A stretch of 64,000 nucleotides of DNA from Phycisphaerales bacterium. Lineage in GTDB: Bacteria > Planctomycetota > Phycisphaerae > Phycisphaerales > UBA1924. Positions 35,639 through 42,648 of the stretch are shown piece by piece. The DNA is taken from positions 186,001 through 250,000 of the forward strand of contig JASBRY010000008.1 of assembly GCA_030149165.1 (NCBI GenBank), written 5' to 3'. The notes under the pieces were generated by a model that saw only the letters and a list, made by a program, of their open reading frames with translations, had not been told where the DNA came from and ran no database searches. Numbering within the stretch: position 1 is the first letter of the stretch; each line of letters begins with the position of its first letter. The translations under genes were made by a program, and so were the position numbers.

Positions 35639-35683
35639 TTGACATTTCTGAAACCGCATGAGATACTATGTCGTACATAGTAT
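35639..35683 (+). promoter_or_regulatory. padR promoter with palindromic operator
   Basis: TTGACA (35639-35644), 17 bases, GATACT (35662-35667). A perfect 9-bp inverted repeat with a three-base centre, ATACTATGT CGT ACATAGTAT (35663-35683), overlaps the -10 and the start point. ATGT/ACAT dyads like this are typical PadR-family operators, so autorepression is likely. Confidence 0.85.
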
Positions 35684-35716
35684 GCAGAACATACCTTCTC
35701 TTAGGAGTCCCTATCA

Positions 35717-36082
35717 ATGAAACTCGAACGCGAACTTATGCGTGGCGCTGGACCGACCGCTGTGCTCAAACTGCTCTCCACACAGTCCATGTACGGCTAT
35801 CAGCTCGTTGAAGCACTCGCAAAGCAGTCCAATGGTGTGCTCGCGATGGGACAATCGACGCTCTATCCGATGCTCTACAACCTCGAAGCGAAGGGGTTGA
35901 TTGAGGCGGAATGGCAAGCCGCGCCCAATGGACGCGATCGCAAGTACTACAACCTCACTGGAAAGGGGAAGAAGAAGCTCAAAGCGGATCTGGAAGCGTG
36001 GAAGAAACTGACTGGTGCGATGAGTTCGCTCGGGATTCTTCCTGATCCCGCGACGATTTCCGAATCCGGAGCGACGGCATGA
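35717..36082 (+). CDS. PadR-family transcriptional regulator
   Basis: 121 aa, a winged-helix PadR repressor. The signature is MYGYQLVEALAKQSNGVLAM, then STLYPMLYNLEAKGLIEAEW, and the basic wing GRDRKYYNLTGKGKKKL. The C-terminal dimerisation helix is short. AGGAG lies nine bases before the ATG, and a perfect palindrome overlies the promoter, consistent with self-control. It overlaps the next gene by four bases (ATGA), so both are produced together. The inducing signal is unknown; PadR proteins often respond to phenolics, drugs or membrane stress. Confidence 0.92.
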   Translation: MKLERELMRGAGPTAVLKLLSTQSMYGYQLVEALAKQSNGVLAMGQSTLYPMLYNLEAKGLIEAEWQAAPNGRDRKYYNLTGKGKKKLKADLEAWKKLTGAMSSLGILPDPATISESGATA

Positions 36083-38115
36083 GCAATGTGCTGTCCAACG
36101 CATGGAACTGGTCTGTGGAGAAGTCGCCGCTCATGAATATCTCTCGCTGGATTCTGCATCAAGGATATCCGAACTCCCAGGCGCGTGGGTTAATCGAATC
36201 AGCCCAACTCCCGCCTGAGCTTGCGGATCTGATTGATTCGACTGTCAAACGCACGAAACTCTGGCGCTCAGAGCGAGCAGAGATTGCTCGCGAACTCATC
36301 ACGCACACACAAGATGCGCTCGAGTCAGGACGCACTCCCGAACGGATTATCGAGTCCTTTGGAAATCCGAAGAAGGTCGCGAAGCTGTTGAGAAGATCTG
36401 CGAAACGCAAGCGGCCTCTGTACTGGAGGACACTGCGAAACATGCGTCGCGCGATCACCGCTGTGCTTGCATTGCTCTTCGTCGTGTACACCATCCAGCT
36501 TGTCCGCTATATCTCAGGCAAACCCAACATCAAAACGAACTACGCTCAGATCATCAACTCATACAACGAGGCGTACAGCGAGGAAGAGAAAGCTTGGCCG
36601 ATCTACAACGAGGCGAACATCGCGTGGAATGCACTCAGCACTCCAGTCCAAGATCAGCAGCGTGAGGAAGTACGCATTTTCAATGACAATCGCGCCAACA
36701 TGGAGGACGACGACGCGGAACTGATGAGTACAGGATTCCACTTGATCCCACGGGTCCCAACCGATCACCCCCAGTACGACCAAACGGCACAGCTTGTCCG
36801 AGACTTCTCCGACGAGCTTAACCAACTCCGCGCCGCGTGTCATCGACCGATCATTGGGATTGATCTCGGATTCGATCTTGAGATCACGCCGCCTGACGGC
36901 AATCCCCATGACATACGCATGGTCTCTCCGGATTCCAATCCAGATCTTCAACCAACGCTTGTTGAACTGCTTCTTCCGCATCTTGGTAGTATGCGTCGAT
37001 TCGCGAATCTGTTGTACTTCGATGCGCTCGTCGCTGCGAGGGATGGGGATCACGATCGTGTATACGAGAACCTTTCCGCGATGCTCGCGATGTCGCGCCA
37101 GCAGTCATTTGACGGCACCATTATCGCTGACCTTGTCAACATCGCGATCGCACATCTCACGGAAAACGCGATGCAGCAGATACTCAACGAGTATCCTGAC
37201 ACCCTGAGTAGATCGCAGCTTGTCGCTCTATCCCACGAACTGGTGCTTGTGCGTCCCGCTCTACACATGTCATTCGAGGGCGAGCGGATGATGTTCGACG
37301 ATGTGCTCCAACGCACATACACCGATGATGGAAAGGGGAACGGACGACTCACCAGACATGGCTCGCAGATCCTCATAGGTCTCAACAGCGATCACATTTT
37401 ACAAAATGAGCTCTCGATGAATCCAGCACAGCTCATCACTGGACCGGTCGCTCTCAGTCTCGCGCCGGATCGAAAGTCTCAGTACGAAACTTACCACACG
37501 ATGATGGACCTCGTCGATGCCGTCCAAGAGCAAGGGCCGCAGTATCTCCCGAAGCTCAAAGCACACGAGCGTCAGGTTGAACGAGCGTTCCATAAAGGAC
37601 CTCAAGTCCTTGACAACCTGATCGTGGGTCCAGCGGAGTTGCTCATGCCAGCGCTCTCGAGAGCTGTTGATCGTGTGTTCTGGTCGCATATGACCCATGA
37701 CGCGACAAAGACCATGCTCACGATCGAGATCTACGCGCGCGACCACGACGTGTATCCTGAGACACTGAGTTCACTCACTCCGAACTATCTCCCCGAACTC
37801 CCAGAAGATTCATTCAATCCCGGACACACGCTGAAGTACCGCATCACAGACTCTGGATACATCCTTTACTCGGTTGGATCAGACGGCGATGATGACTCAG
37901 GCAAGACACATGACGACAAACGACGATTCCCTGAGTTTGAAGACCGATTCCCTGGGAAGTTTGATGCACAACAGAAACTCATCCTCGATGAAACCGGTCG
38001 TCCCGTGCATGCTGAGCCAGTCGGTTCCGATGGGGATTGGATACTCATTGAAATAGACCGAGCACCAATAGAACAAGAGCCGGACCAAAGCCCGGCTCTT
38101 GAGAGTTCAAACTGA
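36079..38115 (+). CDS. PadR-partner membrane protein with pseudopilin-like C-terminus
   Basis: 678 aa overlapping padR by four bases. Residues 30-115 contain a small helical domain (RAEIARELITHTQDALESGR, TPERIIESFGNPKKVAKLLR) like the HAAS/DUF1700 domain often encoded beside PadR regulators. One membrane helix follows at about residues 128-148 (AITAVLALLFVVYTIQL). The remaining 530 residues are probably periplasmic, mostly helical and unrecognised. The end (residues 550-640) resembles a major-pseudopilin globular domain: EIYARDHDVYPETLSSLTPN followed by YILYSVGSDGDDDSG, with the aspartate loop that binds calcium in GspG. The usual N-terminal prepilin helix is missing, so a pseudopilin domain seems to have been grafted onto a signalling protein. 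Confidence 0.82.
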   Translation: MSNVLSNAWNWSVEKSPLMNISRWILHQGYPNSQARGLIESAQLPPELADLIDSTVKRTKLWRSERAEIARELITHTQDALESGRTPERIIESFGNPKKVAKLLRRSAKRKRPLYWRTLRNMRRAITAVLALLFVVYTIQLVRYISGKPNIKTNYAQIINSYNEAYSEEEKAWPIYNEANIAWNALSTPVQDQQREEVRIFNDNRANMEDDDAELMSTGFHLIPRVPTDHPQYDQTAQLVRDFSDELNQLRAACHRPIIGIDLGFDLEITPPDGNPHDIRMVSPDSNPDLQPTLVELLLPHLGSMRRFANLLYFDALVAARDGDHDRVYENLSAMLAMSRQQSFDGTIIADLVNIAIAHLTENAMQQILNEYPDTLSRSQLVALSHELVLVRPALHMSFEGERMMFDDVLQRTYTDDGKGNGRLTRHGSQILIGLNSDHILQNELSMNPAQLITGPVALSLAPDRKSQYETYHTMMDLVDAVQEQGPQYLPKLKAHERQVERAFHKGPQVLDNLIVGPAELLMPALSRAVDRVFWSHMTHDATKTMLTIEIYARDHDVYPETLSSLTPNYLPELPEDSFNPGHTLKYRITDSGYILYSVGSDGDDDSGKTHDDKRRFPEFEDRFPGKFDAQQKLILDETGRPVHAEPVGSDGDWILIEIDRAPIEQEPDQSPALESSN

Positions 38116-40309: not shown

Positions 40310-42622
40310 TCACTCATCCACAAACACGCCGTAGAGCGTGGATTGAGCCCGTTCTTCCTCGTTAACTTTCCCTGTCGACTGCACAATCCCATCCCCTCTC
40401 CCCTCGACGGAGTACACATCCCGGCCCCCTCCCAGATCGAAGAATCCTGAGAAACTCATGACCTTGTCCGCGTCGTAGTGGTAGGTGTTGCTTCCCGATG
40501 TCCCCATCGTTGAGCCGGGATTCGCGGAGTGCCGATCATCCCCTCCCAGATCGATCAGGATCCCGATTGCTTGCATCGCGGCGGCTCCCTGACCCAATCC
40601 ATCACAGCGATACGAATCGTTCCCGGATCTATCGATCAGCATCCCGATCGACTCGTCCCAGGTCCCGGCTTGCGACGCGGCGGTCATCGACCAGTAGGTA
40701 TCATCCCCGGCATCATCGACGAGGATCCCTCCCGCTTGGTGAGCCGCGAATGCTTGTCCGTACCGATTGCCGTAGTACAGATCGTGTCCGCTGTAGTCGT
40801 GCATGATCCCAAGACCGAAGTAGTACCCACCGGCTTGTGAGAACTCACCTGCTTCGTAACGATCGTTGCCACCAAAGTCGTAGATCGCACCGACCCCACC
40901 ACTTGCATAGCCTCGGATTCCAACCCCAAACCCCTGACTCATTCCGAGGAATACTCCAGGTGTGCCGTACGCGGAACCAAAGGTTGAGCCGTTCGCTCGA
41001 TAGATATCTCTGCCGCTCGAATCCACAATTACCCCAAACCCACGAGAACCGCCTACGCCTTGGCAGAGTTTTTCTCCGATGTATGTGTCCGCGCCATTCT
41101 TATCGAGGATCACCCCGGCACCCCAGTACCCAACACCCATTGTGAATCCGGCTTGCTCACCCATATTCTCGTACCGATCGTTCCCCCCACGATCGATGAG
41201 CACTCCAACCCCAAACAATCCCGCGCCGATCGATAGGTGGCCATCACTGGAATACACATCATCCCCAGAGTGATCGTCAATCAGCGAGTATCCATACACG
41301 CCTGTCGCGGGACCAAAGAAACTCCCATCCGCTAGGTATTGATCATTCCCATTCCAATCCACGATGGATTGATTGCGTGTCGGACTGTTCGGATCAAGAT
41401 CCATCTCATCCGGATAGTGGTACACATCGTCGCCATCCACATCGACGACGGATGCGATCTTGCTCATGTCGTAGCGGTTGTTGCCTTTGCCTCCGAGAAC
41501 GCGGTAGTGTCCGGATTCATCGACATCAAACGCGAGCACATCACCCTGAACTGCTTCGCGGAGATTCTCCGGCAGATCATCTTCGTCCATCGCAGATCGA
41601 TTCATCATCAGTTGCGATCGAACTCTGGCATCCCATGCGAACGCGTGCTCCTCCATTGCTTTGAGGCGCACGGCGACTCCGATGGATGCTTCATCAACCG
41701 ATGATTGGATAACACGTAGATGGCCTTCTGCATTCTCGCCGTAGATCGACCAATCGTTGCGCATCTGATCCACCAACACCGTCGCTTTGCTCCACATCAT
41801 TTTCTCGCTCTGAGAGTTGGCACTGGATGCAACTTGGGTAATGACCGCTTCCGTACCAATCTCGCTGAGGTCTGGTAACGCGAGGATCTCGATGATCGCA
41901 TCAGTAACTTTCTTGAGATCCCCCTCGTCCCGCTTGGTTCCGATCGTGTTGATCCGCACCACTTGTTCAGCGATGGTGTGCTCAACTCGGTCCAGACTCA
42001 GTGGACGCTCGAACATCTGCACTACCGCGGGGAGTGATCCCGGATCGAGTGCATCGTTTTGTACTACACCGAGTCGATCGATCAATGCGGCGACACCATC
42101 CTCCTTCTCGAGAATCGCAACTTCTCGCGCACGCTGGAGGATCATCTGCTCGAACTCGCCTTCATTGAGCGATTCAATCTTACGATCCCCAAGACCACGG
42201 CCAATCGTCCCCGACCATTCTGCCTTACTGGAAAGTGTCACGGCTACGGTGAACTCGTCGCCCCCCTCTCCACCCTTTGGGACCGACGCATTCATATTCG
42301 CATTGGGAGAGCGCCGCATGACGAGCATGACTTCGTCGCCTACACGCATTTGATCAAGCGCCTCTTTGAATCCATCCGCATCCAACACTTGACCATTGAG
42401 CGAGACCACATTGTCACCGCGTTGGATTCCTGATTCGGAAGTGAACGCCGTCCCACCGAGTGGTCCTGGATACACCCAACCCACGACCAATCCATCTGCG
42501 GTATCACGCACCCCCAATCCCAGATACGCGATCTCATCCCACGAGCGATCATCCTGTGCTGCTGCACTGCACGCGAGACACGCCATAACCAAACCCAGCA
42601 ATCCAATACGAATCAGGGACAT
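40310..42622 (-). CDS. Exported PDZ protein with a 12-fold Gly/Asp repeat domain
   Basis: 770 aa from the ATG at 42622, which has GGAGAT upstream. A signal peptide ends near CSAAAQ. Residues 28-130 form a PDZ domain (GDNVVSLNGQVLDADGFKEA). A helical region of about 230 residues follows, with heptad-like character. Residues 370-760 are built from about 12 repeats of 30-45 residues, each with a core of the type LIDRGGNDRYE: DWNGNDQY, DRGGNDRY, DFGGNDRY, DRSGNDSY and DLGGDDRH, followed by a glycine/glutamine-rich turn (QAGG, GQGV). This looks like a calcium-binding solenoid related in style to, but not the same as, RTX nonapeptides (GGxGxDxUx). The neighbour is a pseudopilin gene, perhaps co-transcribed. 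Confidence 0.85.
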   Translation of the reverse strand: MSLIRIGLLGLVMACLACSAAAQDDRSWDEIAYLGLGVRDTADGLVVGWVYPGPLGGTAFTSESGIQRGDNVVSLNGQVLDADGFKEALDQMRVGDEVMLVMRRSPNANMNASVPKGGEGGDEFTVAVTLSSKAEWSGTIGRGLGDRKIESLNEGEFEQMILQRAREVAILEKEDGVAALIDRLGVVQNDALDPGSLPAVVQMFERPLSLDRVEHTIAEQVVRINTIGTKRDEGDLKKVTDAIIEILALPDLSEIGTEAVITQVASSANSQSEKMMWSKATVLVDQMRNDWSIYGENAEGHLRVIQSSVDEASIGVAVRLKAMEEHAFAWDARVRSQLMMNRSAMDEDDLPENLREAVQGDVLAFDVDESGHYRVLGGKGNNRYDMSKIASVVDVDGDDVYHYPDEMDLDPNSPTRNQSIVDWNGNDQYLADGSFFGPATGVYGYSLIDDHSGDDVYSSDGHLSIGAGLFGVGVLIDRGGNDRYENMGEQAGFTMGVGYWGAGVILDKNGADTYIGEKLCQGVGGSRGFGVIVDSSGRDIYRANGSTFGSAYGTPGVFLGMSQGFGVGIRGYASGGVGAIYDFGGNDRYEAGEFSQAGGYYFGLGIMHDYSGHDLYYGNRYGQAFAAHQAGGILVDDAGDDTYWSMTAASQAGTWDESIGMLIDRSGNDSYRCDGLGQGAAAMQAIGILIDLGGDDRHSANPGSTMGTSGSNTYHYDADKVMSFSGFFDLGGGRDVYSVEGRGDGIVQSTGKVNEEERAQSTLYGVFVDE

Positions 42623-42648
42623 TCCAATCTCCATCGTGTTTCAGTCAT

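Follow-up and report, generated by a model that had tools for sequence, protein, structure and literature searches.

According to the available part of one account (PMC11237479), HAAS-PadR dyads were defined in 2024 by comparative genomics, with the suggestion that they serve as an alternative to two-component systems. In the model put forward there, HAAS relays a change in fused sensor domains to PadR, and the fusions described are Toastrack, PspC, LiaI-LiaF-TM, FtsX/MacB, FtsW/RodA, other multi-TM and pentapeptide forms. For the Listeria PadR proteins LltR and LstR, the accessible portion of the corresponding study describes control mainly of their own operons, which encode membrane proteins, one of them with DUF1700 (PMC6624303).

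The locus considered here lies in a stretch of 64,000 nucleotides from a Phycisphaerales bacterium (the window), and consists of a padR gene and the adjoining gene of a membrane protein, here called the partner (Table 1). To our knowledge, no signal or mechanism has been established for HAAS-PadR pairs. The locus resembles the described dyads (PF22564/DUF1700; PMC11237479) in that a HAAS protein with a membrane span directly follows a stand-alone PadR, and carries a GxP motif and a further fused domain. With the Listeria systems (PMC6624303) it would share a PadR that represses its own operon with membrane proteins, whereas the protein described in the accessible portion of that study is multi-span and lacks a pseudopilin part. 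The available part of the dyad description (PMC11237479) mentions no form that combines a single span with a large ectodomain that is helical and ends in a pseudopilin domain. HAAS-PadR pairs are already known; their single-span, pseudopilin-ended form is new. Our preferred reading, to which we assign a probability of roughly 0.55, is that PadR and the HAAS partner would form an autorepressed, membrane-tethered dyad in which HAAS relays a change in the ectodomain to PadR.

Table 1. Features of the padR-partner locus, in positions of the window
Feature	Residues	Position	Strand	Basis or remark
Sigma-70-like promoter, TTGACA-17-GATACT		35639-35667	+	10/12 consensus bases
Predicted PadR-type operator, ATACTATGTCGTACATAGTAT		35663-35683	+	overlaps -10 hexamer
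AGGAG ribosome-binding site of padR		35703-35707	+	direct sequence reading
padR		35717-36082	+	121 aa; PF03551 match, E 3e-23
Partner gene		36079-38115	+	678 aa; HAAS, one TM, helical ectodomain, pseudopilin-like domain
HAAS domain	41-111	36199-36411	+	PF22564 match and modelled helices
Single transmembrane segment	124-142 (about)	36448-36504	+	hydropathy; model helix 114-146
Helical ectodomain	149-519 (~370 residues)	36523-37635	+	model, pLDDT mostly >90
YTDDGKGNGRLT loop	414-425	37318-37353	+	between two helices; EF-hand-like, strongly conserved
Pseudopilin (GspG)-like domain	520-660	37636-38058	+	profile, profile-profile, structure
GSDGDDDSG loop	600-608	37876-37902	+	at GspG calcium loop position

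The padR gene and its operator

The identification of the first gene as padR is, on sequence grounds, certain: the PF03551 winged helix scores 82 bits against a cut-off of 27, and the product is a small repressor with the winged helix and no long C-terminal domain. Its promoter match is weak when taken alone, as the region contains three such sites where 1.6 are expected. The predicted operator, ATACTATGT-CGT-ACATAGTAT, has perfect 9-base arms, and only 0.05 comparable palindromic sites are expected in the window; the perfect palindrome that an earlier note on this DNA had described is borne out, as is the overlap of the two genes, which is of 4 nt (ATGA). Downstream of the partner lies a convergent PrpD-like gene, named from the appearance of its sequence only, and because this neighbour is convergent the transcription unit comprises two genes. 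The partner's last codons (38074-38101) contain a terminator-like stem of 12 pairs for the convergent gene on the minus strand. Further along the minus strand (40310-42634), a 774-aa protein appears by eye to begin with a PDZ-like part and to continue with many GGxDxY repeats.

The operator is conserved with the gene pair. A search upstream of padR for ATACTATG-N5-CATAGTAT with up to three mismatches, a single pattern that misses weak or different sites, found it at 70 of 76 homologous loci, at a median distance of 53 nt before padR, whereas of 380 stretches drawn at random from these loci 5 matched. In the source genome the full pattern occurs once, with a tolerance of up to two mismatches. 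An exact match to a shorter operator core occurs at 15 sites in 61 genomes, and 14 of these precede the dyad described here; sites with one mismatch to the core look like background, because a control pattern is overall no less frequent. The sole exact core match outside a dyad (L168; genome G049, C10:13361-13377) is flanked by ORFs that include a secreted LamG/dockerin-like protein, judged by eye, and no obvious padR. A single operator overlapping the -10 hexamer fits a predicted autorepression whose regulon hardly extends, if at all, beyond the operon and, because the operator is unique in the genome, no regulated output other than the operon product is evident.

The partner protein and its relatives

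HAAS is the only family match of the partner above cut-off (PF22564, residues 63-102, E 2e-7, 31.7 bits against 27), and is detectable at E 0.01 in 51 of 76 homologues. The AlphaFold2 model, built from a 76-sequence alignment with a mean pLDDT of 91, places HAAS helices at residues 46-59, 63-82, 87-94 and 97-110. The GxP motif (G95-N96-P97) lies at the kink of the third HAAS helix, where the model breaks the helix at 94-97; G95 is present in 76/76 homologues and P97 in 40/76. Hydropathy gives one strong hydrophobic span after HAAS in all 76 homologues, and Lys and Arg are more numerous before the span than after it in 93% of them. The partner's N-terminus and HAAS are predicted to be cytoplasmic, and the earlier proposal of a HAAS-like domain on the inside followed by one membrane span holds. 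Within the partner, conservation is highest in HAAS and the pseudopilin domain, with mean pairwise identities of 47% and 41%, respectively. PadR co-divergence with HAAS is no stronger than with other regions of the partner.

A search of 60 related genomes yielded full-length partner homologues, 27 of which were aligned (27-52% identity). All 27 have a single conserved architecture and an adjoining padR, with the 4-nt overlap in 26. A scan of 84,980 species genomes, using peptide patterns that pick the HAAS region and carry no information on padR, recovered 80 partner loci, which are planctomycete by the titles of their records (Phycisphaerales, Pirellulaceae, Mariniblastus and others), except for a few titles that seem misassigned or are unspecific. 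A padR is found in the neighbourhood at all 77 evaluable loci, the remaining three running off their contigs; at 55 of the 77 the two genes overlap by exactly 4 nt, and at two loci padR is about 1.9 kb from the partner. These sequence comparisons show that padR and the HAAS partner are inherited as one unit. The fusion, whose occurrence in other Phycisphaerae had been named as a check, is found there and beyond, across Planctomycetota.

The source genome holds two genes for PadR and two for HAAS, which form two pairs. Its second dyad (L002 1423-3194; contig C10, about 676346-678117) also has an ATGA overlap and is conserved in the genus, with a different upstream palindrome, ATATATC-gaaactt-GATATAT. 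Three orthologues of the second partner end, by eye, in an SLBB-type domain; a reading of its ectodomain as a secretin N-domain was faint (2 of 14 members, best E 0.046) and is not claimed. At further HAAS loci, a padR-like gene was seen at 20 of 20 examined.

Residues 155-523 of the partner are mostly helical in the model. A fold search with the whole protein returned designed helical repeats and solenoids and no clear solved relative of the ectodomain, with scores that are usual for helical models and say little about the ectodomain fold itself. The ectodomain and the pseudopilin end recur in planctomycete proteins that lack HAAS, mostly with just an N-terminal span or a signal peptide, and with up to four such proteins in tandem. 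Tandem arrays were seen at L115, L118, L119 and L126, and in two of these, L118 and L119 (662-663 aa), the N-terminal part is multi-span and includes a Cys-rich CxxCRY stretch. No padR was found in 16 neighbourhoods of these HAAS-less relatives, so that PadR tracks HAAS rather than the ectodomain, and five of their loci viewed by eye gave no functional hint. Because the ectodomain and pseudopilin end recur without HAAS, the HAAS form looks like an envelope module joined to a PadR switch. The anatomy described in the earlier note, and its link with PadR, are upheld by the invariant pairing, the conserved operator and the absence of padR near the HAAS-less relatives.

The same observations bear on a possible but less likely alternative in which the membrane protein is the effector and not a sensor: PadR would answer a small cytoplasmic compound, HAAS would do no more than titrate PadR in a homeostatic feedback that keeps the membrane protein at a constant level, and the ectodomain would have an envelope job common to the HAAS-less relatives. 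The occurrence of the ectodomain without HAAS and padR, in up to four tandem copies, argues for it, as do the sole evident output implied by the unique operator and the regulation of mainly their own operons by LltR and LstR (PMC6624303, in its accessible portion). However, HAAS has the highest identity in the partner and is always in one chain with the ectodomain, and transmembrane signalling, as in the dyad reading that we prefer, fits at least equally well.

The pseudopilin-like end and the acidic loops

In the AlphaFold2 model, a helix at residues 526-556 is followed by a small beta domain. Residues 520-678 modelled alone reach a pLDDT of 92, and all 20 structural matches listed for this model are pilins or pilin-like entries, the best four being GspG major pseudopilins (top match 3gn9, Z 8.2, 2.5 A over 88 residues). 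A Z near 8 is modest on its own and is backed here by the profile and profile-profile results: the best PDB sequence match of the domain profile is GspG (2kep, E 5e-4), and hhalign of the domain against GspG from related genomes gives 85.7% (E 5.5e-6), whereas no control (15 column shuffles, the profile reversed, and four segments from elsewhere in the partner) exceeds 0.5%. The alignments agree in register, with partner residues 520-523 at about pilin residues 19-22. No GspG/T2SSG match above cut-off was found in Pfam or NCBIfam (NCBIfam GspG, 12.6 bits against 88.85), so the GspG homology rests on profile, profile-profile and structure. The absent Pfam match and the low NCBIfam score would suit a resemblance due to convergence or to a chance match of phrases, but the agreement of profile, controlled profile-profile and structural comparisons in the same register makes such a resemblance next to negligible in probability and refutes it in practice.

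By sequence and model, residues 520-660 are a truncated GspG pseudopilin fold. They share with GspG/PulG/EpsG (3gn9, 3fu1, 4lw9, 2kep, 5o2y) the second half of helix 1, the beta sheet and the position of the acidic loop; unlike these proteins, the partner has a ~370-residue helical ectodomain attached and its own span far upstream, and is not encoded among secretion genes. Because the domain starts at about pilin residue 19, the membrane-embedded half of pilin helix 1 is missing; this hydrophobic N-terminal half is absent, and the membrane span lies about 380 residues upstream of the domain. A motif scan of the partner for the prepilin signal (G/A, F at +1, E at +5) found none. The GspG-like C-terminus without a prepilin helix that had been noted earlier is therefore recovered, and the structure prediction named beforehand as its check matched pilins and pilin-like entries, with GspG first. 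The fold predicted for residues 550-640 stands, but those limits do not and are replaced by 520-660.

The pseudopilin part is retained as a fold without the assembly features of a working family member. The GspG-like fold, together with the three secretins and 33 pilin-like matches in the genome, might suggest that the partner is a working pseudopilin or secretion part that assembles with type II or type IV machinery. This is highly improbable: the protein has neither a prepilin site nor the membrane-embedded half of the pilin helix, its domain follows the span at such a distance, and the neighbouring genes are unlike secretion genes. The proposal is largely refuted by the missing assembly helix and, because the assembly features were tested and are absent, the partner is not a working member of the pseudopilin family.

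Two acidic loops are among the partner's most conserved parts. D602, D605 and D606 of the pseudopilin loop, at the place that the calcium loop occupies in GspG, are retained in 87%, 95% and 89% of 76 homologues, respectively; the claim that the calcium-loop aspartates are kept thus stands, with the amendment that the loop is about three residues shorter than that of GspG. The second loop, at residues 414-425, has the consensus YTDDGxGDGRLT, nearly invariant in the family, and may be a cation site or a catalytic loop. The same helix-loop-helix is also present in a HAAS-less relative. From these sequences we infer that the acidic loops may bind calcium or another metal. On one reading, the ectodomain would measure a periplasmic cation, for example calcium, through D602/D605/D606 and loop 414-425, with binding-dependent folding or unfolding as the signal. 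PulG, a homologue of GspG, depends critically on calcium to fold and assemble (PMC6692295), and the conservation of both loops would agree with such a sensor. Against it are the shorter pseudopilin loop, the departure of loop 414-425 from an EF-hand (Gly at position 12 without the usual acidic residue, and a variable position 3), and the retention of at least one acidic loop in the HAAS-less relatives, so that a cation may be purely structural. We regard cation measurement as distinctly unlikely.

Proposed signalling by the dyad and its meaning

In the autorepressed, membrane-tethered dyad that we prefer, PadR dimers would occupy the operator, mask the -10 box and silence padR and the partner; at the membrane, HAAS would bind PadR. 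A change that a ligand, envelope stress, a cation or a protein partner causes in the ectodomain would pass through the span to HAAS, and the change in HAAS would alter PadR's hold on the operator and so raise or lower the output of the membrane protein. The pseudopilin domain would be a globular module put to new use in binding or folding, with the usual route of pseudopilus assembly closed to it. Sensing by the ectodomain and contact between HAAS and PadR are plausible and consistent with the published proposal for HAAS-PadR pairs, in its available part (PMC11237479). The dyad probably lets the cell tie expression of the partner to envelope conditions. Literature searches on pseudopilin domains in Planctomycetes returned nothing relevant.

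A more speculative extension, which we consider unlikely, is that a pseudopilin without its membrane half now forms the external portion of a signal protein with one span, directly reading the state of a pseudopilus or secretin, or the calcium that these require, and passing it via HAAS to PadR. If true, this would be transmembrane transcriptional signalling whose receptor descends from the parts of a secretion fibre. In this locus a pilin fold has been separated from its assembly helix and serves anew in a family of envelope proteins that the databases used do not name, and this compact dyad of two genes, a single span and one operator, found across Planctomycetota, offers a clean system for testing the HAAS-PadR proposal.
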